NCBI GenBank assembly: GCA_019054805.1
Contig: JAHQIY010000003.1
Coordinates: 9,548,001 to 9,612,000, forward strand
Length of the DNA: 64,000 nucleotides
Origin: Brachionus manjavacas
Lineage: Eukaryota; Rotifera; Eurotatoria; Ploima; Brachionidae
Direction of reading: 5' to 3'
Part shown: piece by piece, positions 11,066 through 63,737 of the stretch
Layout of the letters: every line of letters begins with the position of its first letter
How positions within the stretch are numbered: the first letter of the stretch is position 1
Notes under the pieces: generated by a model
What the model saw: only the letters and a program-made list of their open reading frames with translations
What the model was told of the DNA's origin: nothing
Database searches by the model: none
Program-made: the position numbers and the translations under genes

Positions 11066-12105
11066 TCATTGAACTATTTTTAATGTATAATTAATTTTTA
11101 ATCTGTTCAGTAGATTCCTAAGTCTAGTTTCGATTATGTCAATTTTCTGATCTTCGATAAGACTAAAAAACTGAATAGACGATATGTCAAATGGTAAGTG
11201 ATAAATTGACTCGAAGGAAGTATTCTGAAGTACCTGTAGTTTTTGCATGTTTGTTCCAGATACACGAGATAGAGTGAAAAAACTATAGACTAAAATGGAA
11301 CCTATAAATGCGTTTTATATTCCTGATAGTGTTTTTTTACTTAATTTCCTAGATTTTTGGGAAAGAATCTTAACTAGATTCACACTATCTGGAATGGGTA
11401 AGCTCAACTAAGGAGTTAAAGTACAGATTTTGGTCAAATTTTGCTCCATGAAAGACCGGAGAGTCTGTGTATGGAATTTTCTTGCCAAAAAGTTTTAGTC
11501 TTAGCTTATTGCTAAGACGACCCAGACCTGACCCAGGCCTAAGCCTCTTCTCAAAGTAAAGTTCGTAAATTGCTTTTTTGAAGTCAAGATTAAAATTTGA
11601 ACCATTTACTGTTTTATGATGCTCAAAATGATATATCTGCTTGAATTGGGATATGATCACTGAACATATCAAAATCTTTTAGAACTTTGAAGTTAGGTAT
11701 CTTATCTGATAGTAATGAAGATATAAGAAATATATTAAGAATTTTAAGAAAGTCAATTTTAAATTTGTTTTATGTTGGTGTTCATTTATTACCGAAAAAT
11801 TGAGCTTGCTAAGAGTTTTCTCTAAAATAAGACCATTTTCATTTTCCTCAAAGCACCCTAGATTTTGAGCTTTCGCATTAAGGTTTCCCCCGAGCATAAT
11901 ATTTCCACATCGTTTTGAAATGTCTAGGAAAAGTTCAAAAGAGCGTTATTTGGTGGATTATAAATACTATGGACAGAAATATGTGTATAATATAAGATTT
12001 TTTGATACTAAGTAGTTCTTGACAAAATTTTTAAAATGAATTATCTTGCTTGAACCTAATTCCGTCTTTAATTAAAAAAGTTTCTCCTCCTCCATTATTA
12101 TTTCT
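11066..12105 (-). pseudogene. Antisense LINE fragment: endonuclease, linker and RT thumb
   Basis: Read on the minus strand from 12105 leftwards: G-G-G with F-L-I-K-D-G, then Y-N-P-P-N-N, L-G-G-N-L-N-A and F-E-E-N-E-N-G, then S-D-H-I-P-I, the order of an APE-type LINE endonuclease. A linker frame (11672-11385) follows, then directly an RT C-terminal piece (V-L-Q-N-T and L-P-F-D-I, 11248-11066). The RT palm is missing, so this copy is internally deleted. There are several frameshifts. The family is related to, but not the same as, the sense copy to its right. In block B the same fragment is cut off at 44276. Confidence 0.7.
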
Positions 12106-12139
12106 GGCCTTTAAAATTGAGTTATGGTTTTATCTTTAT

Positions 12140-14514
12140 TTTCACAATTATCAGTTCATAACAAAACCACGCTACAAGTATGGAGGAGGAGTAGCTATTT
12201 TAATTATTTATTTATTTTTTATCTGTACCGAGCTAATGCTCCTTCAGAATATTTTAATGGGAATATTATTTCAGCACAATCAATTTCTGATTAGCACAAT
12301 GAAAAAAACATTCAACACAATTCGATTTCTTTTAAGCGCAAAAAATTGTATTTAAAAAAAAAAAAAACATTTAACACAAAAAATTGTGCTTGAAAATAAT
12401 TCTTAAAAGAAATTTTTTTTCAACACAAAAATATTTATAATAATATAAGTTTTAAATCTTGTTTTCTATTTAATGATAATAAAGTATATTTCGAAGCTTA
12501 AAAAAAGATATTAAAAAAAACTAGTCTCCAGAAAACCATTTTTCCGCATTTTTTGTTCTACCTCTTTTAGGTTTATTGACAAATTGGTCCTTTTTTTTAA
12601 ACAGTTCTTTTAATGCCAATAAATGTGCACAATATCCTTATTCAGTGAAAAACTTGCAAGAACATTTCTTACTGTTAAGGTTAACTTTAGTTAAATGCAT
12701 TTCTTCATTTTTAATTTTTGTGCTAAAATTTTTTTTTTAAATTTTAATTTTTGTGTTGAGAAGAAATCATTTTGTGCTGAGCGTTTTGGAATTGGGTTGA
12801 ATGGTTATTTTTTTGTGTTGAAAAGGTAGACCCTATTTTAATTAAGAAAGGAATTGAATTTATACAAGATTTTTCTTATGAGGAATTCAATTCCGAAGTC
12901 CTTTGTATAAAACTAAATTTAGGAAAGAATCACGAACTAGTTGTATTTAGTCTTTATAATCCACCCAATGTGCTTCTGAACTTTGAGATTTTTAAAACAG
13001 TTAATAAAAAATGTAGAAACTACATCTTAGGTGGTGATTTAAACGCTAGAACAAAGCAAAAAGGCTGCGTAAGGGAAAATGAAAACGGTTTAATGTTGGA
13101 AATAAAAATCAATGAGTTAGACTTTGAGTAGTCAATGATAAGCTTTCAATATTTTTTAATAAGAATTACTTTGAAAATCTTGATCTTTTTTTAGTTTCAT
13201 CTTCATTAATTGACAAAATTACCGACTTCAATGTAATAGTCAAGACATGACTAATGACGTGACTAATAGCCATTTCCCAATTGAAGCTACAATTTCGATG
13301 GGCTATCAACAGCAAAAAAATTTAACTTTAAAAAAGCGAACTGGCAATTATTTAGCAAGATTTTAAATTCTCAAATAGCTATTATCCCTAAAAGTTCATC
13401 ACTATAGATCAACTAAATGATAAAATTACAGAAAAAATCATTTCTGCTTCTCATAAAATCATTCCTTATCTTTCTCAGAAAATCTACAAAACCGGTCTTC
13501 CCCCGAAAATTGTTATTCTGATAAAAGAACGTAGAAAAGTAAGAAGAAACTTCCAAAAAACTCGTTGTCAAAAGCTCAAGCAAAAATTTAATCAACTTAC
13601 ATTTGAGTTAAAGGCCTCTTTAAAAAAAATTCTGGAATCAAAAATTGGTTTGATTTTATCAAGAAGATGGTAAAAAAAACCCACTTACAAGTAGACCATT
13701 TTGGAAAAAGATAAATAAATTTAGAACAAAAAAAGCATCAAATTTCAATCCAAAATTTGATTTCAAGTGACAAGGAACTCAAAACTAATGAAGAAAAGGG
13801 AAAATGCTTCGAAGAACTATTATCTTCAATATTTAGTCATAATTCTGATTCAATTGATACAAAGAAAGATTTTGAAATTCTAACTCTGAATTCTAACTCT
13901 GAATTCTTTAGAAATTATGATCAGTGTAATTTTAATGATCCAATTTGCTAAAGTGACAAATTGATGTTTTTTTAATTATTTTTAGAGAAGGTAAGTTCCC
14001 GAAAGCGTGGAAAACTTCGAACACTACTATGATTCAAAAAAAGGTGATTCAAATTTACAATTAATTAAATTAATTAAATTAAATTATAGACTAATTAATA
14101 AAAAGAGTTGTTTAAGAAAGTTACTGGAACGAATAGTTTATTCAGGGTTATACAATTTTTTGGAACAAAATTCACTCCTTATCCAGGAGCAATCTGGATT
14201 TAGGAAACACCGGCGAACATCAGATAATCTTTTCTTTTTAATTCAAAAAATTGTGGAATCATTTAATAGAAAAAAAAGATTTTGTGGCCTTTTTTTTGAT
14301 ATTTCTAAGCCTTTTCTAGGGTTTGGCATGAAGGTTTACTTTTTAAATTGTTTAAATGAATCCACCTCATTACTTGACTAACTGGATTAGATCCTTTTTA
14401 GATAGTAGAACATTTAAGGTAAATGTGAATGACCACTTGAGCGACGAATATCAAAAAACTGCAGGTGTTTCTCAGGGCTCAGTAATTAGTCCTCTTTTAT
14501 TTGGTATATATACT
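12140..14514 (+). pseudogene. Sense LINE fragment: endonuclease and RT, broken
   Basis: Starts just before Y-G-G-G-V-A-I-L and, after a 626-bp insert (12207-12832), continues in frame as I-K-K-G-I. Then come Y-N-P-P-N, L-G-G-D-L-N-A-R and E-N-E-N-G of the endonuclease, a degraded linker, and RT motifs: G-K-F-P-K-A-W, L-L-E-R-I-V-Y, Q-S-G-F-R-K-H-R, F-D-I-S-K and S-Q-G-S-V-I-S-P-L-L. It is split by many frameshifts and stops. The RT ends at T-N-D before the catalytic Y/F-A-D-D, partly because a Gypsy element is inserted at 14520; the few remaining codons resume at 19124. Confidence 0.75.
12207..12832. mobile_element. 626-bp insertion with inverted clusters of CAACACAA-type motifs
   Basis: The insertion splits the endonuclease frame cleanly and is bounded by a 12-bp direct repeat ctattttaatta (12195-12206 and 12833-12844); deleting it with one repeat restores the frame. 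The left part holds cagcacaa, tagcacaa, caacacaa and taacacaa motifs in plus orientation, the right part ttgtgctaa, ttgtgttgag, ttgtgctgag and ttgtgttgaa, the same motif inverted. On the minus strand it starts GGTCTACC and ends in an A-rich tail before the direct repeat, which could also fit a SINE-like insertion. No coding frame is seen. Confidence 0.65.
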
Positions 14515-27674: not shown

Positions 27675-27999
27675 CTTTTAAATAGAATAAAATTTATCAT
27701 TTTTTTTTTCATTTTTGAAAATTTTTTGTAAATTTTCAAAAATGAATTTCAAAAATACCCAAAAAAGACTACAACTATACCAAAATGTCTTTTAACCATT
27801 TTAGTCATTTTTTTAGGCTCCAGAAATTCAAAACTAAATTGCTGTCTGAATTTCTAATTCTTGACTTGAAACCCTCAATTTCATATTTTTTTTCGCGAGG
27901 CTCAAACTTCAGAATGCTAAGTTTGAGCTAAGTTCCATAAATGGAGCCTACGCCTTGGCACTACAACGGACACCTATATATACAAGCTACTCTCCGTCA

Positions 28000-28180
28000 T
28001 TTCGGCAGCTTTCGAACTTTTTATTTAACTTATCAATAAAAACGACTGACTCGTGGTCAAGCCACCGGTCAGCCAACATTTTTGTCAACATTTTTACAAA
28101 AATGTTGGCTGACCGGTGGCTGGACCACGAGTAAGTCGTTTTTATTAGAAAATTAAAAAAATTAAGTTCGAAAACTGCCG
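28000..28180. repeat. 180-bp palindrome
   Basis: The core arms gtggctgaccgg-type sequence (28036-28085 against 28096-28147) are almost perfect inverted copies containing ccaccggtcagccaacattt. Outer arms cggcagctttcgaact and agttcgaaaactgccg extend the palindrome. It is GC-richer than the surroundings. Likely a small foldback transposon; no target duplication was found. Confidence 0.8.
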
Positions 28181-28714
28181 GTAATACGTAGGGCAGCGTA
28201 TATTTTAAAAGAAATAAAAGATTTTTTTTTACTTTTTTTAAATAATAAAAATTGGCAAACACTTTTTTATAAAAAACAATATGCACCAGAGTGTATAAAA
28301 TTTTATTCTATTTCTGAATATATAAATTTTTAAAAAATATTCCAATTTAATCATTGAATACCTGGGTTTGAAAGAACTACAAATTTTTAAAAAGTTACCC
28401 GATTTTCGTCCCCCGGGTATAAATTTTTTTGGAACGTCCAAAAAAAAGGAAATTAAGGATTCAAAGGACGTAGTTTAAGAATTTCAAGTCAAAAATTAGA
28501 AATTAAGATAACACTTTAGTTTTGAATTTCTGGAACTTAGCAAAATTAAGTAAAAGATTAAATTTAGTTTAAATAAAAATCTGAAGAGTTTATAAATTTT
28601 TGTAAAATTCTGTAGCATAGTTCCAAAATTTAAATTATACTTTAGTCTGTATGATTATAAAATATAAATTTTTTTTCTCTGTTTAATTTAATAAATGGAT
28701 AAAACGGGTCCTAA

Positions 28715-37509: not shown

Positions 37510-38520
37510 TTATTTTTGTTTTTTCCCCTGAGTTGTTGATTTCTTTGGTCTTCCTCGTTTTCTTGGTAAATCCACTGTAGCTTCGACTGTAGATTCAGTA
37601 ACAGATTCTTTCTCAATGACTGAATCGGTAGGAGGCTCTTGAATATCTTCATTTTCTGAACTACTCAAATCACAATCATTTTGGTAAAACAAAGCTGCTT
37701 TTTGTTTTTTTGGTCTGCCTCTTTTGCGTTTTTGACCGATCGAAATTGTTTTAGCTTCTTCTGGGATAATGCAAAGCTTGTAACGGTATGCAAGGCCAAG
37801 AACATGAATGCAGATGTAGTGTTTAGCAAATTCTCTACAATTGCATTTGCTTTGTTTCCAATCATCGGAACATAGAATGGTCTCATTGATCTGGCAAAAT
37901 TGAGAGTAGTCATTAAATGTACGCCAAGATAAATTTTGTTTTGTTAAAATATAGTCGTCAACTGTTTCCTTTGTCAGCTTTAGATTGAGATCTTGATGAT
38001 TATAAAAAATACGACCATTAGAGGAAGAAATTTTGATAATACAGTCAGTTTTTATATTGCTAGTCCATTGAAAAGCGACAGTATACAATTGTAGATCGCA
38101 ATTAAATTCAGTGTAAAAAATTGCACGATTCACGTTTTCGGGATGCCTATCTCTTGACCAACGCCCAATGACGTCATTCTCTAAGATTGTAAGGAATGAA
38201 CTTAAATTGTGACGTTGCCTCATAGTTGACTCTAGCTTGATGATTAGATTCCAGGATTCTAAAGCATTATTGGTGGATGGTACACCGGGAGCATAGCCTT
38301 CAAACCAACCTTTTAATCTTAAAAAAATTATAAAATAAAAGATGAAAATATTAAAATATATATATATTAATAATACCTTGTAGTCCACTCGCAGCAAAAA
38401 TAATCAAGGAAATTGTCTATAAGCTCAGATTTATACGAACGCCACTTGTTAATGAAAAGTTTTAATACGGCATCAAAAATTTCTTCAGATTCGCACAATT
38501 GAAGCCGCATGATATCTTGT
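37510..38520 (-). pseudogene. MULE transposase, C-terminal part with SWIM zinc finger and AT-hooks
   Basis: Two exons on the minus strand: 38520-38377 and 38317-37510, separated by a 59-bp GT-AG intron (38318-38376) whose removal keeps the frame (C-E-W-T-T-R joined to L-K-G-W-F-E-G-Y). The product of about 316 residues has the MULE post-catalytic segment P-S-T-N-N-A-L-E-S-W, then a SWIM zinc finger C-N-C-R-E-F-A-K-H-Y-I-C-I-H, two AT-hooks K-R-G-R-P-K-K with an acidic Ser/Glu stretch between, and a basic end. SWIM and AT-hook parts bind DNA; the DDE catalytic domain should precede but is absent, because a splice acceptor at 38521-38522 now opens directly into the repeat cluster. Confidence 0.85.
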
Positions 38521-38867: not shown

Positions 38868-39781
38868 TCTATATAATTTTCAAAAAAGCACTATAAAAAT
38901 TTTATAGATTTTTTTCTAATGTTCCAAAATAGTTCTGAAGTTGAAACAGAATGAAACAACTTTTTTATTACTAACTGCGTAAGTCTGCAAAATCTGTAAA
39001 AATTTATTGCAATTTTACTAGCATATTTCGGTTACTTTAACTAAAAAATCACTTAATATCTGTTCCTAAAAATTAACTGTCAATTAAATAAATGGACTGC
39101 GCGCAATGATTCTGGAGCAATTACGACTGTTAGCAATGATTCTGGAACAATTGCGACTGCTAGCAATGATTCTGGAACAATTATTATATTATTATTTATT
39201 TATTTAAAACTGATTAATCTCTATACTGCTAAAATAATTTTTTAAAACTTAATTAATTTACTTATGAAGACATCGAATATTTTTTAAAATAGCATAATAT
39301 TTCAAATTTCAAAAGAAACATTTCATTTAAAAAGAATTATTTAAAAATCAAAAAAATTAATTTTTTTTTGAATTTTTTTAATTAATTGATAATTTTAAAA
39401 AGCTGACAATGGCCAAAAAAGAAAAATTTTTTAATTTAATTTAAGTAAAATTAAAAAAAAATTAAAAAAAATAATTTAGGCTGAAAGAGTACCATACAAA
39501 AGGTGAAAAAGTCGGTTTCGTCGTCGATGTCGTCATTGTCAGCAGACCCGTTTTCATAAAATAGCACACTCGAATTGCTCAAAAACTTGGAGAGACGCTA
39601 AAAAGCAACAAGTTCGAGCAACAAATAGAGTAGAGTGTGGAGACAAACAAAATTGTCGTCATTCACAGCCTCCTAATCAAACAACTACACTCTTAGCCAA
39701 ATATGTTAGTTTTTAGGTAAGTTCGTACACTTTTATGTTTGATTTTTGTCTTACACTGTTAGCTAGATATGTCAGCAAAAA
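38868..39781. other. Intergenic region with a 30-bp tandem repeat and a possible short coding exon
   Basis: At 39103-39182 a 30-bp unit starting gcaatgattctgga is repeated 2.7 times and encodes a leucine-rich decapeptide. At about 39517-39715 a GC-richer stop-free plus-strand stretch reads C-R-H-C...H-S-N-C, a pattern like a small zinc knuckle, then T-W-R-D-A-K-K. It has no start codon and I cannot assign it; it may be a transposon exon. Confidence 0.4.
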
Positions 39782-40014
39782 CTTTTTTTATAAAGGTCTA
39801 AAAATTATTCTGCAAAATGTATCAACTGATTCATGGTTTGTATCATCCAAATTTCGTCTGTGCAAAAATTCTGTAAGTCTGCAAAACACTACATGTATTA
39901 AACAATCATCAAAATTTAATTGCACAAATTTTGCACAGACAAATTTTGGATGATACAAACCATGTATCAGTTGATACATTTTGCAGAATAATTTTTAGAC
40001 CTTTAGGAAAAAAG
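39782..40014. repeat. 233-bp palindrome with ~80-bp arms
   Basis: Arms 39782-39865 and 39932-40014 are inverted copies with few mismatches; both contain atgatacaaaccatg-type and aggtctaaaaattattctgc sequence. The loop is about 66 bp. If transcribed it would form a long hairpin RNA. Two overlapping 63- and 72-codon frames in the arms are a consequence of the symmetry. No target duplication was found. Confidence 0.85.
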
Positions 40015-41766
40015 TTATTTAAATTTAAAATTTTTTTTTTGTTTTTTGTTCCAAAATTCACAAAGCCCATTTATTTAATAGACAGTAAAACCTAAGTAAG
40101 TATTTTCTATTAGTCATTTTTAATTTAGAATTAATTTATTAAATTTTTGATTTAAATTAGCCATGGTTATCGAAAAAAGTTGCTAGCATCCACCAAACAA
40201 GACACAACATAGTTAGAACCGCACGCTTTATTTCATTTGAATATTATTAATATTTTGAAACAATCAAACTCAAGAAAAAGCAAGGAAAAGGTTGGTTAAT
40301 TTTTTTTTTTTTTTAATTAGTTCTCCCATGAATTTTGCAGAGGTTAAATGTAGATAACATAACCTCGGTAAAGAGATTTTTCGCACCAAAAGGGAAAATA
40401 CTATTTCAATTTTTATTTTTTGTTCCAAAATTCATAATGCCGTTCTAGTATTCAATCGTTAAATAAAAAAAAAATATATTCACAATCTTGACGCATGTAG
40501 GTTCTAAAACATACCGGACCATAGCTAAATAAGTAAAAGTTTAATTAACTTGAAATTAAATGAAGTTTTTATTAATGTTAAAAACATGGAAAAAGTGCGA
40601 GTATTCAAAAAATAATTTTAAGTTAATCTTGTAAGAATATTCTCATATTTTTAATTAAACTTTTTAGTGAAATAGAGCGAGTTGAATTTTAATTTGTAAA
40701 ATTGAAAAAAAAAATATTGAAAATCTTTTTTTCTAAATTTCAAATAATCAGTTTATTTTTTCCGACTCTTTTCATATAAGTTATAAATACAATAATTTGC
40801 TAAAAAAAATATCGATTTTTGCAATAAAATTAATTGATTAAAATTATTTTAAGGCTAATTAAAATCAATTTCCTAAATAAAGTTGGTTTTTTCTTGTTTA
40901 AATTTAAATTCTATACTTATTTTATTAATAATGGAGAATTTTAGAAATCAAATTAAATATCGCGTAGTTAATTAGTACACTGTGCTTCTAACTATCACAG
41001 CGCGTATATTGCGAATAAAGATTGCAACACGTTCAATAAATCAATAAAAGCAACGCGTGCTCTTGGCATAAGAGTAGTAAATGAAAAAAAATTGATAAAA
41101 ATTAAAAAAAAATTTTAATCAATTTAAATTTAATTTTAAAAATTGAATAATTATCATTACATAATTTCAATTTGCCTTGTTCATCAGAATCAATAAACTC
41201 AAGCAAAACGAAAAATCAGTCAAAGTTAAAAAAAAATTGTAAGTATTTTAAACTTTTCTAAACTTAGCATGAAAAAACTTGCTTTTAAACAGCAGAAATA
41301 AAACTGGTCGAGAAATGGTCAAGAAACTTAAAATAGAGTCATATATTGGTTATGATAGATGCTGATGTTTAAAAAAAGCAAAATAAATAAAAACGTATTG
41401 TGCTTGTGATCTAAGAATAAAACTAAAGGTGTCTAAAAATTAAGAATTTTTACAAAGTAAATTGTAAAATTATCTGTTTTCATACAAAATATGGTTTTTT
41501 TAAACCTATATACGCAATTAATTTTTATGTTTAATTTTTGTTACTCCGATTAAAAGAACTTTGTGTAAATTTTTTTTTCAAATTAAAAGAAAAATAGTTA
41601 AGCACTCGCTTTTTCTATTTAATCTTTCAAAGTCTCACTTCATCAATAATTTCTTTTTCAATTTTCCAAATAATTTCTCTATTAAACTATTTAGTCAACA
41701 AAAAAAAATTAACTAATAAAATTTAAGTTCAATTGTTTTTAGAAAAAATTAAAATAAATTTAATAA
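40015..41766. other. AT-rich region upstream of the three-exon gene
   Basis: No repeat or frame recognised. The promoter of the following gene presumably lies here, but no convincing core element can be chosen in such AT-rich sequence. Confidence 0.35.
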
Positions 41767-44275: not shown

Positions 44276-44299
44276 TAGTTTTTGCATGTTTGTTCCAGA

Positions 44300-45145
44300 G
44301 GCACTATATCTTTTCATAGTGAATCTTTTCATAGTGTGTTTAAATTTTCAAAGTGAAAGTCAATTTCATAGTCACTATCGTTTCATAGTGAATTTTTTCA
44401 TAGTGTATTATTTCATAGTGTATTTTTATTTGATGTATACATCGAAACTATAGTTTTTCATAGTTTGTCATTAAAAAAAAAAAATTTAAGAATGATAAAA
44501 AATTTACTTAATGAAAATAAAGCGATTAATACTCCTAGGCGATTAAGAAGTGGAACTATTTTAAGTAAAATTTCATCTGTAGTTTCTGAAATAAATAATA
44601 CTAATGTTGAAACATGTAAGGCTACTACAAGTAAAAATTCTGAGGTTGATGAAATATTTGAATGCGTTGATGATGATAATAAGTTAGTAGAGCAATTTAG
44701 ACTCGAACAAAAAAATACTGACATTTTATATACTCAGTTAATGGCAGGAGATCAATATGAGAAAACTTTTAATTCTAAATTAAAAGAAAAATAGATCAAA
44801 AATATTGTCGACAGATCATATTGTATATCAAATGATTCAAGCATATTAGAATATCTAGACTCGCTAAGTGCTGTAGTTTAAATTTTTTTTGACACAACTC
44901 TTTTTTTTGACATTTTATTTAACGAAAATTATATCTTATTATCAATTATTTAATAAATTAGCTTTTTTTTCTTCTTAATTAATTTTTACATAAACGTGTT
45001 TTACGGACACTATGAAAAAAAAACACTATGAATAAATCACACTATGAAATGAATAATCACTATTAAATGATATACACTATGAAATCATCTCTCACTATGA
45101 AATATATGCACTATGAAAAAACTCACTATGAAATGATAAAGTCCC
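44300..45145. mobile_element. 846-bp DNA transposon with inverted clusters of TTTCATAGTG
   Basis: Flanked by an 8-bp target duplication gttccaga (44292-44299 and 45146-45153); block A shows the empty site at 11253-11260. Termini GGCACTATATC and (other strand) GGGACTTTATC are inverted repeats. Behind the left end are about eight copies of TTTCATAGTG or one-base variants (44313-44465); before the right end about eight of the inverse CACTATGAAA (45009-45135). A 100-codon frame lies in the middle. An 8-bp duplication and GG starts would suit MULE, hAT or Merlin-like transposition; I cannot choose with certainty. Confidence 0.85.
44492..44794 (+). CDS. Small basic/acidic protein inside the 846-bp transposon
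   Basis: From ATG 44492 a 100-residue frame: a basic N-terminus with T-P-R-R-L-R-S-G, a Ser/Thr/Asn-rich middle and an acidic, helical C-terminus (D-E-I-F-E-C-V-D-D-D-N-K). It has no transposase motif and no recognised family. It lies in the middle of the element, between the two motif clusters. It may be a remnant of a longer element gene, a captured host exon or chance, since AT-rich DNA yields such frames. Confidence 0.4.
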   Translation: MIKNLLNENKAINTPRRLRSGTILSKISSVVSEINNTNVETCKATTSKNSEVDEIFECVDDDNKLVEQFRLEQKNTDILYTQLMAGDQYEKTFNSKLKEK

Positions 45146-45153
45146 GTTCCAGA

Positions 45154-46005
45154 TACACGAGATAGAGTGAAAAAACTATAGACTAAAATGGAACCTATAA
45201 ATGCGTTTTATATTCCTGATAGTGTTTTTTTACTTAATTTCCTAGATTTTTGGGAAAGAATCTTAACTAGATTCACACTATCTGGAATGGGTAAGCTCAA
45301 CTAAGGAGTTAAAGCACAGATTTTGGTCAAATTTTGCTCCATGAAAGACCGGAGAGTCTGTGTATGGAATTTTCTTGCCAAAAAGTTTTAGTATTAGCTT
45401 ATTGCTAAGACGACCCAGACCTGACCCAAGCCTAGGCCTCATCTCAAAGTTAAATTCCTTAATTGCTTTTTTGAAGTCAAGATTAAAATTTGAACCATTT
45501 ACTGTATTATGATGCTCAAAATGATATATCTGCTTGAATTGGGATTTAATCACTGAACATATCAAAATCTTTTAGAACTTTGAAGTTAGGTATCTTATCT
45601 GATAGTAATGAAGATATAAGAAAAATATTAAGAATTTTAAGAAAGTCAATTTTAAATTTGTTTTATGTTGGTGTTCGATCATTTATTACCGAAAAATTGA
45701 GCTTGCTAAGAGTTTTCTCTAAAATAAGACCATTTTCATTTTCCCCAAAGCACCCTAGATTTTGAGCTTTCGCATTAAGGTTTCCCCCGAGCATAATATT
45801 TCCACATCGTTTTGAAATGTCTAGGAAAAGTTCAAAAGAGCGTTATTTGGTGGATTATAAATACTATGGACAGAAATATGTGTATAATATAAGATTTTTT
45901 TGATACTAAGTAGTTCTTGACAAAATTTTTAAAATGAATTATCTTGCTTGAACCTAATTCCGTCTTTAATTAAAAAAGTTTCTCCTCCTCCATTATTATT
46001 TCTGG
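45154..46005 (-). pseudogene. Antisense LINE fragment, block B copy
   Basis: Same fragment as at 11066-12105: endonuclease pieces around 45780 and 45550 and the linker frame 45565-45278 on the minus strand, with the RT thumb lost because the block begins at 44276. Several frameshifts are shared with the block A copy. Confidence 0.7.
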
Positions 46006-46039
46006 CCTTTAAAATTGAGTTATGGTTTTATCTTTATTT

Positions 46040-48435
46040 TCACAATTATCAGTTCATAACAAAACCACGCTACAAGTATGGAGGAGGAGTAGCTATTTTA
46101 ATTATTTATTTATTTTTTATCTGTACCGAGCTAATGCTCCTTCAGAATATTTTAATGGGAATATTATTTCAGCACTTTTCTGATTAGCACAATGAAAAAA
46201 ACATTCAACACAATTCGATTTCTTCTAAGCGCAAAAAATTGTATTTAAAAAAAAAAAAAACATTTAACACAAAAAATTGTGCTTGAAAATAATTCTTAAA
46301 AGAAATTTTTTTTCAACACAAAAATATTTATAATAATATAAGTTTTAAATCTTGTTTTTTATTTAATGATAATAAAGTATATTTCGAAGCTTAAAAAAAG
46401 ATATTAAAAAAAACTAGTCTCTAGAAAACCATTTTTCCGCATTTTATGTTCTACCTCTTTTAGGTTTATTGACAAATTGGTCCTTTTTTTTAAACAGTTC
46501 TTTTAATGCCAATAAATGTGCACAATATCCTTATTCAGTGAAAAACTTGCAAGAACATTTCTTACTGTTAAGGTTAACTTTAGTTAAATGCATTTCTTCA
46601 TTTTTAATTTTTGTGCTAAAAGTTTTTTTTTTTAATTTTAATTTTTGTGTTGAGAAGAAATCATTTTGTGCTGAGCGTTTTGGAATTGGGTTGAATGGTT
46701 ATTTTTTTGTGTTGAAAAGGTAGACCCTATTTTAAATAAGAAAGGAATTGAATTTATACAAGATTTTTCTTATGAGGAATTCAATTCCGAAGTCCTTTGT
46801 ATAAAACTAAATTTAGGAAAGAATTACGAACTAGTTGTATTTAGTCTTTATAATCCACCCAATGTGCTTCTGAACTTTGAGATTTTTAAAACAGTTAATA
46901 AAAAATGTAGAAACTACATCTTAGGTGGTGATTTAAACGCTAGAACAAAGCAAATAGGCTGCGTAAGGGAAAATGAAAACGGTTTAATGTTGGAAATAAT
47001 AATCAATGAGTTAGACTTTTGAGTAGTCAATGATAAGCGCCCTGCTTTCAGTATTTTTAATAAGAATTACTTTGAAATTCTTGATCTTTTTTTAGTTTCA
47101 TTTTCATTAATTGACAAAATTACCGACTTCAATGTAATAGTCAAGACATGACTAATGACATGACTAATGGCCATTTCCCAATTGAAGCTACAATTTCGAT
47201 GGTCTATCAACAGCAAAAAAATTTAACTTTAAAAAAGCGAACTGGCAATTATTTAGCAAGATTTTAAATTCTCAAATAGCTATTATCCCTAAAAGTTCAT
47301 CACTATAGATCAACTAAATGATAAAATTACAGAAAAAATCATTTCTGCTTCTCATAAAATCATTCCTTATCTTTCTCAGAAAATCTACAAAACCGGTCTT
47401 CCCCCGAACATTGTTATTCTGATAAAAGAACGTAGAAAAGTAAGAAGAAACTTCCAAAAAACTCGTTGTCAAAAGCTCAAGCAAAAATTTAATCAACTTA
47501 CATTTGAGTTAAAGGCCTCTTAAAAAAAAATTCTGGAATCAAAAATTGGTTTGATTTTATCAAGAAGATGGTAAAAAAAACCCACTTACAAGTAGACCAT
47601 TTTGGAAAAAGATAAATAAATTTAGAAAAAAAAAAGCATCAAATTTTAATCCAAAATTTGATTTCAAGTGACAAGGAACTCAAAACTAATGAAGAAAAGG
47701 GAAAATGCTTCGAAGAACTATTATCTTCAATATTTAGTCATAATTCTGATTTAATTGATACAAAGAAAGATTTTGAAATACTTTATTTTAACTCTGAATT
47801 CTTTAGAAATTATGATCAGTGTAATTTTAATGATCCAATTTGCTAAAGTGACAAATTGATGTTTTTTTAATTATTTTTAGAGAAGGTAAGTTCCCGAAAG
47901 CGTGGAAAACTTCCAACACTACTATGATTCAAAAAAAGGTTCAAATTTACAATTAATTAAATTAATTTAATTAAATTATGGACCAATTAATAAAAAGAGT
48001 TGTTTAAGAAAGTTACTGGAACGAATAGTTTATTCAGGGTTATACAATTTTTTGGAACAAAATTCACTCCTTATCCAGGAGCAATCTGGATTTAGGAAAC
48101 ACCGGCGAACATCAGATAATCTTTTCTTTTTAATTAAAAAAATTGTGGAGTCATTTAATAGAAAAAAAAGAGTTTGCTGCCTGTTTTTTTATATATCCAA
48201 AGCCTTTGATAGGGTTTGGCATGAAGATTTACTTTTTTAATTGATAAAAATGAATTCACGTCATTACTTGACTAACTGGATTAGATCCTTTTTAGATAAT
48301 AGAACATTTAAGGGAAATGTGAATGACCACTTGAGCGACGAATATCAAAAAACTGCAGGTGTTTCTCAGGGCTCAGTAATTAGTCCTCTTTTATTTAGTA
48401 TATATACTAATGACATCCCCAAAAGAAACTGTTAA
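46040..48435 (+). pseudogene. Sense LINE fragment, block B copy
   Basis: Matches 12140-14514. Here the RT piece is uninterrupted at its 3' side: Q-S-G-F-R-K-H-R, then S-K-A-F-D-R-V-W-H (48200-48228) and, in the next frame, S-Q-G-S-V-I-S-P-L-L followed by T-N-D-I-P-K-R-N and a stop at 48433-48435. The catalytic Y/F-A-D-D motif is absent, so the truncation pre-dates the Gypsy insertion in block A. Confidence 0.75.
46105..46726. mobile_element. Insertion with inverted CAACACAA clusters, block B copy
   Basis: 622 bp, same position and structure as 12207-12832, bounded by ctattttaatta (46093-46104) and ctattttaaata (46727-46738). Confidence 0.65.
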
Positions 48436-52200: not shown

Positions 52201-53489
52201 ATAGTAATTATGGATGTTAATTCTGATTAAAATCAGAAAATAAAATAGATGGATGAATTATGACGCTGCAATAATTCAAGTCTTCATTAAAAAAAAAAGC
52301 GAATTTTGTTCAAGTGCTCTTTTAATGCAAGAAGTGTTGAGAAAAATTTGGAAAATAAAAATTTTATTCATCAATTGTAAAAGTTTTTGTTTAAAGATTA
52401 CAAAATTATGGTATTAAAACGATTCATAGCACAGCAAATCATTGCAAGATGAAATTTTGCATAGCAAGGTAAATTTTTGGAATGACCCTTACTTTTCTTT
52501 AAAACTTTCCTATAAAAGTTTTCTCAAAATAATTCAAAATCGGCTCAAAATTTGCTTTGCTTTTTTTTTATTAAATTAAACCCCTTACATCCTCTAATTT
52601 GGCAAAAGCTAAATCACGAAACGATTTTTCCAAATCAAAATCAATTTTTTTTTAATTATTTTTTTGACTAACTTGGACATTGGACCTGACAGGAGCAGAG
52701 TGTGATGAAAGGTTTATAATTTTTCTATATTTAAATTTTTTAAACTAAGTGACTCATTAAGGTTTTCTTTCAAAAAATTACTATTCATACTCTAAAGATA
52801 AAATAGAAAAAAAAACTTTAATTTTTTGCGGAATTTTGTCTTGAAAAGTCTGAAAATAGCTTGCTATGAAACGTTACAGAGCCAAAATTATATGATTCTA
52901 AGCTGTTTTAATGTGCACGAACAAAAGCTTAATTTTAAAATAAGTAAAATTTTCCTAATTCCTTTATACGAGTCTAAATATAATTAATTCAATTATTTCA
53001 AACAATTTCCATTTTTATTCACGGAATTCTATAATATTTGAATTCTAAATGTTGACCAGTCTCTTTAGAATAACTAGTTAATTTTGTCAAAAATCAATTA
53101 GATAAAGATAAATTATTTCTCGACAAACACTAAAGTATTATGTAAAGAAGGATATATTTTAAATGTAAACAAATAAGAGATATAAATAAAAATGATGCAA
53201 ACAAGAAGGAATTGTGTAATGAAAGCTGAATAAGTTAATAAGACCTAGAATTTGGATTAAAATGTTCTAAAAATGAACTGGCTGCTAATTGATTTATTAA
53301 AAGATCCCAAAATGAAGGTTTCTTAGGCAATTCACAGCCAATTTATCAGGCAATTTGTCTAATTCTTACTTAAATTAAAGGAAATTTATTTAATTTTTTA
53401 TTAATTTAGAAATTATTCAAAAATATAGACTAACTTTTTGTTTTTTAATAAAAGGAAGAATAAAAAATATTCTAAATTGTATTTTTTCC
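49226..53489. other. Long AT-rich gene-free region
   Basis: Apart from inverted repeat X at 50621-50766, no gene, terminal repeat or family motif was recognised in about 4.2 kb. No frame above 60 codons lies here, except one that straddles the RTE fragment boundary and is a shadow of it. Confidence 0.45.
50621..50766 (-). repeat. Short dispersed repeat X, inverted copy 2
   Basis: Inverted match of 20669-20808 with small indels, ending at actaaagg. No terminal structure or frame is seen. Confidence 0.75.
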
Positions 53490-62615: not shown

Positions 62616-62947
62616 CAATTAAATGATGCACTTATATTTAATGAATTTTTTTCAAATTAAATTTTTAAAAACTTAAAAACGCCACTAAATCACTTAAAAA
62701 TATTGAAATTTTTTGGCTGGTCAAAAATTCCAAACAATTTATTGAATAAATATTTATTTTTTATAATTTGATGCTTTGTTGGGGATTTTTTTTTTAAATC
62801 ATCCTTTATTTGACAAATTTGTTTGGAATTTTTGACCAGCAGCCAAAAAAAAATTCAATTTTTTTTAAGCGATTTAGTGGCGTTTTTAAGTTTTGAAAAA
62901 ATTAATTTGTAAAAAAAATCATTAAATATAAGTGCATCGTTTAATTG
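62616..62947. repeat. Palindrome enclosing a copy of the neighbouring 3' UTR
   Basis: Arms 62616-62735 and 62821-62947 are inverted copies (caattaaa...cacttatattta against taaatataagtg...ttaattg; aacgccactaaatc against gatttagtggcg; ggtcaaaaattccaaac against gtttggaatttttgacc). The 85-bp loop reproduces 62263-62390 in shortened form, including the AATAAA. Confidence 0.82.
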
Positions 62948-63737
62948 AACAAAATCAACATGAGGACCAGGAGTTGATATTAAGAACTCCCCAGACATTT
63001 ATATTTGTCTGTTTTTAACTCATAGTATTAATTAATCAGTTGAGAAAAATGCCTTTTTTGTTATTTATGGCTTATTAAACATCGTCTTTAAAAGTGCAAA
63101 TATTAAATTAGAAAAAAAAACAATTTTGTCAATTGATTTATTATTTCAATGGGCTAAAAACAGACAAAGATAAATATTACTAAAATACGGAAAAGGTTTA
63201 GAAACAAAAAAAACTCTTTCAGCTTTAAATGATCTGTGTATACTTACACAAAAAAGGTTCAAAAAATAAAAAATAATCGAATAAAAATAACTCTAGAATT
63301 TGAAATATTTTCTGGAAATTTGAAGATTGCTTTTGAAAAAAATTGAACTCTAGATTAAGTAAAAAATAGATTTCAGCTTTATTAAAAATAAATTTAATAT
63401 TTTAATATTTTTTTAATTTTTGTTTTTAAAGTGCTTTTTTCTTACATGGTTCTAACAAAAATATAACTAAAATCTTATTTCTCTTGCTGTGTATCTACAT
63501 AAATTAACTAAAACTAAAATATGACAATTCAGAAACGAAAATTAGCGCTTTTATTTATTTATTTATTTAATTCAAATTAACCTCCATCAGGAGAAGTAAA
63601 GTAAAAATAAAATTAGTTTTGCATTAAAAAAAATAAAATGTAAAATTAAATAAAAATAAAAATAAAAAAAATTAAAAAAAGAAGAAAATGTATAGTTATT
63701 TATAGAAACCCCCCTGGACCAGAAGGAGTGAACTGAT
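62948..63737. other. AT-rich spacer and LINE 3' flank
   Basis: No gene. An atttattt run at 63550-63570 and a small GC-richer patch accccc near 63708 lie downstream of the minus-strand LINE end, probably in its 3' UTR. Confidence 0.4.

Follow-up and report, generated by a model that had tools for sequence, protein, structure and literature searches.

Transposons with long ends built from a terminal motif and rows of short repeats have been described in several animals. Muta1 from Aedes aegypti has 145-bp ends that combine a 10-bp terminal motif with nine 12-bp units separated by 3–4-bp spacers, and its insertions are flanked by 8–9-bp duplications (PMC5225508). Tm1 from Meloidogyne has composite ends with 1–9 units, most often of 14 bp, and duplications of 8–10 bp (PMC3169594). 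Phantom, group 20 in a survey of Mutator-like elements (MULEs), is described there as having duplications of 8–10 bp, terminal inverted repeats (TIRs) of 18–613 bp and, in some members, a FLYWCH domain (PMC6446971), and the Drosophila virilis foldback element Tetris was placed in Mutator by its authors (PMC4079207). The element studied here occupies 846 bp (positions 44300–45145) of the window, by which we mean the whole 64-kb stretch of DNA analysed. We are highly confident that it is a non-autonomous, internally deleted Mutator-like copy of the FLYWCH-MULE Phantom/Muta1 type, moved and reduced by the mechanism proposed below. The composite-end layout is already described in its mosquito and nematode relatives (Muta1 and Tm1), and the window's element represents a family that is new but belongs to an established type.

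An initial annotation of the window had proposed a DNA transposon at this position, and the boundaries that it gave are correct, other copies of the family sharing the terminus (Table 1). The 8-bp duplication that it reported, GTTCCAGA, is exact on both sides of the element. The imperfect inverted ends read GGCACTATATC and GGGACTTTATC, and the TIRs are ∼130 bp long and 78% alike, inverted repeats that are often long being a feature of MULEs. Eight plus eight inward-pointing 10-bp TTTCATAGTG motifs, 11 of the 16 exact, were likewise correctly described, and give the element foldback-like composite ends in which a terminal motif is combined with rows of short repeats at both ends. Their clustering goes beyond that of shuffled sequence: with ≤1 mismatch allowed, TTTCATAGTG is found 22 times in the window against 7.7 expected and a maximum of 15 in 100 shuffles, with 16 of these matches inside the element and the remaining six scattered. 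In a de novo count the commonest 8-mer (≤1 mismatch) occurs eight times per 170-bp end, a number matched by none of 100 dinucleotide shuffles of either end.

Table 1. Features of the element and of its empty site (positions in the window)
Feature	Position	Strand	Basis
Left GTTCCAGA copy, 8-bp target site duplication	44292..44299	.	sequence; empty site
Left terminus GGCACTATATC	44300..44310	+	sequence; terminus shared with other copies of the family
Left array, 8 TTTCATAGTG units (5 exact, 3 one-mismatch), spacings 15,19,18,17,15,15,45	44312..44465	+	
100-codon frame, in-frame fusion of transposase N-terminus (62 residues) and C-terminus (38)	44492..44794	+	no Pfam match
Junction of 1,416-bp internal deletion relative to C12 copy; common to C8 copy	44673..44678	.	
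Right array, 8 inverted TTTCATAGTG units (6 exact, 2 one-mismatch), spacings 15-18	45008..45133	-	
Right terminus, GGGACTTTATC on - strand	45135..45145	-	sequence; other family copies
Right GTTCCAGA copy of the duplication	45146..45153	.	sequence
Single GTTCCAGA at empty site, within a further copy of the repeat that flanks the element	11253..11260	.	

A search of the genome (114,169,980 bases in 61 contigs) with the ends located at least seven loci of the family, a lower bound as for all such DNA searches: the window, C8, C12, C22, C9 and two on C3. The two C3 loci are inverted duplicates of one insertion, which leaves six independent insertions with lengths of 846, 3005, 2250, 585, 8231 and 2248 bp in the order given. 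Exact 8-bp duplications, within the 8–11 bp used to define MULEs, flank five of these six, and at C22 the duplication agrees at 7 of 8 positions and lies within a T-run. All 34 genome matches to the paired motif fall within the seven family loci, and the reversed control gave none. Several copies are disrupted: C8 carries a retrotransposon-like insert (named by eye) inside its right end, C9 is broken by a gypsy-like insert, and C22 is a distinct form with a double deletion.

The transposase-bearing copy that the initial annotation had suggested looking for was found at C12 (2250 bp). Here the same ends bracket two long frames, the first with a FLYWCH domain (Pfam PF04500, 43.6 bits against a cut-off of 23.6) and the second with a MULE domain (PF10551, 41.6 bits against 27.6); the FLYWCH frame lies upstream of the MULE frame as in Phantom (MULE group 20), where FLYWCH is not universal. 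Used as a protein query against the genome, the second frame returned 135 matches (131 of 517 candidates scored), and residues D72, D132 and E264 (C12 frame numbering), which we take to be the catalytic triad of MULEs, are invariant across 12 aligned relatives. Pfam scans of ten relatives placed nine above the MULE cut-off, with L072 just below it, and L046, L053, L056 and L057 above the FLYWCH cut-off, with L062 just below; for L061, L071 and L072 the scanned sequence lacked the N-terminus. Because C12 encodes both FLYWCH and MULE, and the window element is C12 minus 1,416 bp, we assign the latter to the Mutator-like elements of Phantom/Muta1 type, as a non-autonomous member. All the features tested place the window's family among the MULEs, and in its working it resembles Phantom/Muta1, a clade to which it is likened by features, as the transposase tree took in no published Phantom sequence and places the family at a weakly supported position (65/47).

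A duplication of 8 bp is compatible with several superfamilies, and by this feature the element could be a hAT, Merlin or P element that merely looks like a MULE. We consider this hardly conceivable, since the MULE domain encoded between identical ends in another copy exceeds its Pfam cut-off, since Pfam reported only FLYWCH and MULE in the C12 frames, with no hAT transposase, no Merlin (IS1016-type) transposase and no P domain, and since GGC/GGG ends are at odds with those of hAT elements, which start with CA. The three superfamilies were dropped once the MULE transposase had been found between the same ends. The Mutator-like assignment also revises the earlier remark that no named family with this motif was known: no transposon-titled paper was among the literature matches listed for the TTTCATAGTG 10-mer, but the class itself is recognizable. 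One fully open transposase frame was found in none of the family copies located in the genome, the C12 transposase having two frame changes and the C3 pair both stops and frame changes, so that present mobility is doubtful. Two scans of viral contigs for transposase relatives produced 6 and 142 pattern matches, none of which was confirmed.

Like Muta1, the window's family is a MULE with long composite ends (a terminal motif plus tandem subterminal repeats), a duplication length found in Muta1, and non-autonomous derivatives, of which Muta1 has many (PMC5225508). This likeness is one of layout, the repeat sequence being absent from the text compared; the 12-bp units and 3–4-bp spacers of Muta1 differ from the 10-bp motif and mostly 5–9-bp spacers seen here, and Muta1 is a 3198-bp, two-exon element active in yeast, whereas no open copy of the window's family was found (PMC5225508). 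Composite ends, asymmetric termini, a FLYWCH-MULE transposase, deletion derivatives and a duplication length in the 8–10-bp range are common to Tm1 and the window's family; Tm1 differs in its CGATTCAGTATCGC-like motif, its usually 9-bp duplication, an extra GA-rich motif D and a FLYWCH domain without the final histidine (PMC3169594). Phantom group 20 is matched in duplication, TIR and FLYWCH, as compared with its published description (PMC6446971). Tetris resembles the window's family in having few structurally complete copies, 8–10-bp duplications and no conserved frame; its autonomous partner was not found, whereas the window's family has a transposase-bearing copy (PMC4079207).

The window copy corresponds to positions 1–374 (97.6%) and 1791–2250 (97.2%) of the C12 copy, hence the 1,416 bp missing from it, and a short shared AAT lies at the break. 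The identical deletion junction is present in the C8 copy, within a different duplication and different flanks, and the divergence between the two copies is 2.6% across 796 aligned positions. The central 100-codon frame, which the initial annotation had listed as having no recognized function, is real but is not a separate gene: it consists of the two tips of the deleted transposase fused in frame. The corresponding fusion in C8 is open for 129 residues and reaches the transposase's own C-terminus, with the stop in the window copy coming earlier. Truncated transposon repressors exist, such as KP of the P element, and the fusion may by analogy have been retained as a small regulatory protein, consistent with the in-frame junction and the open frame in C8. 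This is very unlikely, however, given that the fusion contains neither FLYWCH nor the catalytic core, that it stops earlier in the window than in C8, and that the junction is a single event with roughly a one-in-three chance of preserving the frame.

Evidence for the insertion itself comes from an empty site within the window. Positions 44276–44299 are identical to 11237–11260 (24/24) and 45146–46500 match 11253–12607 at 97.9%, the flanks of the element being contiguous at 11237–12607. The initial annotation had placed this empty site in a 'block A'; the site is genuine, but what was called block A is a single member of a dispersed repeat family and not a unique duplicated block. The joined flanks gave 41 matches in the genome, 29 of which cross the insertion point at 73–99% identity, the best of these (99%) being the window's own copy at 11237. 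As the joined flanks match dispersed uninterrupted copies, the target sat 24 bp inside one repeat copy, and the 11237 copy shares only 16 bp beyond the duplication to the left of the insertion because the flanking repeat starts there. For the C3 insertion the joined flanks were uninterrupted in 20 of 30 matches and for C12 in 10 of 59, although seven of these 10 sit in one regularly spaced block on C5 and so are not independent. Uninterrupted flank copies thus support the boundaries and duplication at the three insertions that the check covered (window, C3 and C12). The seven C12-flank matches on C5 (133693–161625) follow one another at a regular step of ∼4.63 kb, suggesting a tandem repeat array.

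An empty copy could in principle also stem from precise excision, as revertants of Muta1NA1 in yeast are reported to have been ∼90% precise when duplications flanked the donor (PMC5225508). Since the empty site is a repeat-family copy, and since precise excision in yeast is possible for the described MULE Muta1, the site fixes no date and leaves the direction uncertain, and the earlier description of a dated insertion site does not hold. With ∼2% divergence between the window flank and the nearest empty copy, and the divergence between the window and C8 copies given above, no sharp date follows.

In the mechanism that we propose, a transposase acting in trans most likely recognized and bound the TTTCATAGTG rows at both ends and would have cut the element out at its GGC.../GGG... 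termini, and joining of the excised element to a staggered 8-bp cut would have produced the GTTCCAGA duplication. The internal deletion, probably through incomplete repair of an excision gap, took away FLYWCH and the entire catalytic core. Because the deleted form occupies two loci that differ in duplication and in flanks, it was itself mobilized at a later time.

A further 23 loci with related transposases were examined, each with 1.5-kb flanks. Paired ends with an exact duplication were present at 13 of them, the duplication measuring 8 bp at L046, L051, L053, L054, L055, L056 and L057 and 9 bp at L050, L061, L062, L065, L068 and L071. They were not found at the other ten (L047, L058, L059, L060, L063, L064, L066, L067, L069 and L072), some of which do have one-sided motif repeats; ends first proposed for L047 were judged wrong on comparison with L046 and are excluded from the counts. 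The 13 loci make up nine families with differing motif arrays: CATAGAAAA (L061), ATAGAAAA (L053/L054), TATAGAAA (L055/L056), TTTCATCGC (L050/L051), AAAATAGC (L071), TTAGACAA with TTCGACAA (L062), TTCGACAA (L065/L068) and, recognized only by eye, TAGAAGC (L046) and GAGAAAA (L057). GGC/GGG end pairs are found in five of the nine (L050/51, L053/54, L055/56, L061 and L071), as in the window's family, GGC/GGC pairs in two (L046 and L057) and GAATC/GGT pairs in two (L062 and L065/68).

In a de novo motif test on 16 ends of eight relatives, 13 ends beat all 100 shuffles, and the weaker ones were L071 right (reached by 4 of 100 shuffles), L055 left (3) and L053 right (2); the ends of L046 and L057, found by eye and then placed by script, lie outside this test. 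It is a fairer measure than the spacing counts, for which motifs were picked by eye and ≤3 mismatches allowed. Under the latter criteria the reversed motif also scores (0–6 per end; 3 and 5 in the window element against 8 and 8), and unit counts and spacings are therefore soft. Read in this light, spacings pooled from ten loci excluding the window copy peak at 14 bp (29/147) and 15 bp (43/147), at 19 of 22 ends, those of the window copy among the 22, a distance of 14–15 bp separates the first two units found, and L050 additionally has spacings of 17–20.

With motif labels assigned by eye, loci with ATAGAAA-like motifs form one clade of the transposase tree (98/96) and loci with TTCGACAA or TTAGACAA another (100/99), TTAGACAA alone forming no clade. 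These differences bear on what the arrays bind. Known MULE ends hold promoters besides transposase sites, according to two studies (PMC3310237; PMC6446971), and the arrays may accordingly serve mainly host factors, in promoter function or silencing. Such a role as the main one is unlikely, in that the arrays are inverted at both ends and are present in non-autonomous copies as well, and motif differences between transposase clades within one genome are at odds with a shared host factor. The TTTCATAGTG arrays plausibly bind the transposase.

We tentatively suggest, with confidence slightly short of even, that the genome holds a natural series of ten or more FLYWCH-MULE-type families, counting the window's with the nine above, across which the recognition motif has changed (TTTCATAGTG, CATAGAAAA, TTTCATCGCA, AAAATAGC, TTCGACAAG and others) while the layout was kept. 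This layout would comprise an outer terminal block, a first step of 14–15 bp at most ends, a commonest pitch of 14–15 bp and, in the window's family and five others, a GGC end paired with a GGG end, with transposase and array co-evolving under a geometry fixed by the alignment of the transposase along the DNA.

Other features of these loci were seen in passing. A wider gap in the array of L061, L053, L055 and L057 contains a GAC...GTC-GAAA dyad, at the same place in both L061 ends. L046 (422–2779, genome C6) has an uninterrupted 583-residue FLYWCH-MULE frame and the duplication ACCAATTC, and a flanking frame resembles a retroelement protease by eye. The window itself holds further traces of transposons. 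A MULE-like C-terminal fragment (by eye) at 37510–38403 (- strand) has SWIM and AT-hook domains above the Pfam cut-offs and by these domains does not belong to the family of the window element. At 52862–52883 (- strand) there is a solitary terminus that differs at one position from GGCTCTRTTACGTTTCATAGCA, the right end in the related L050 family (0 in 100 shuffles), and no array or partner end was seen beside it. Palindromic stretches at 39777–40020, 62616–62950 and 27978–28203 are 79–86% self-complementary and look like foldback or MITE-type elements.

Taken alone, the window element is an ordinary decayed transposon derivative, and its 'unknown' frame is accounted for as a deletion fusion. 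Its value is that of an entry point to several related transposases in one genome, whose short motif arrays differ from one transposase to the next but are similar in pitch. This series of families, with differing motifs in a similar layout, is the less expected part, and it would open to testing both the reading of element ends by a FLYWCH-MULE transposase and the evolution of such recognition.
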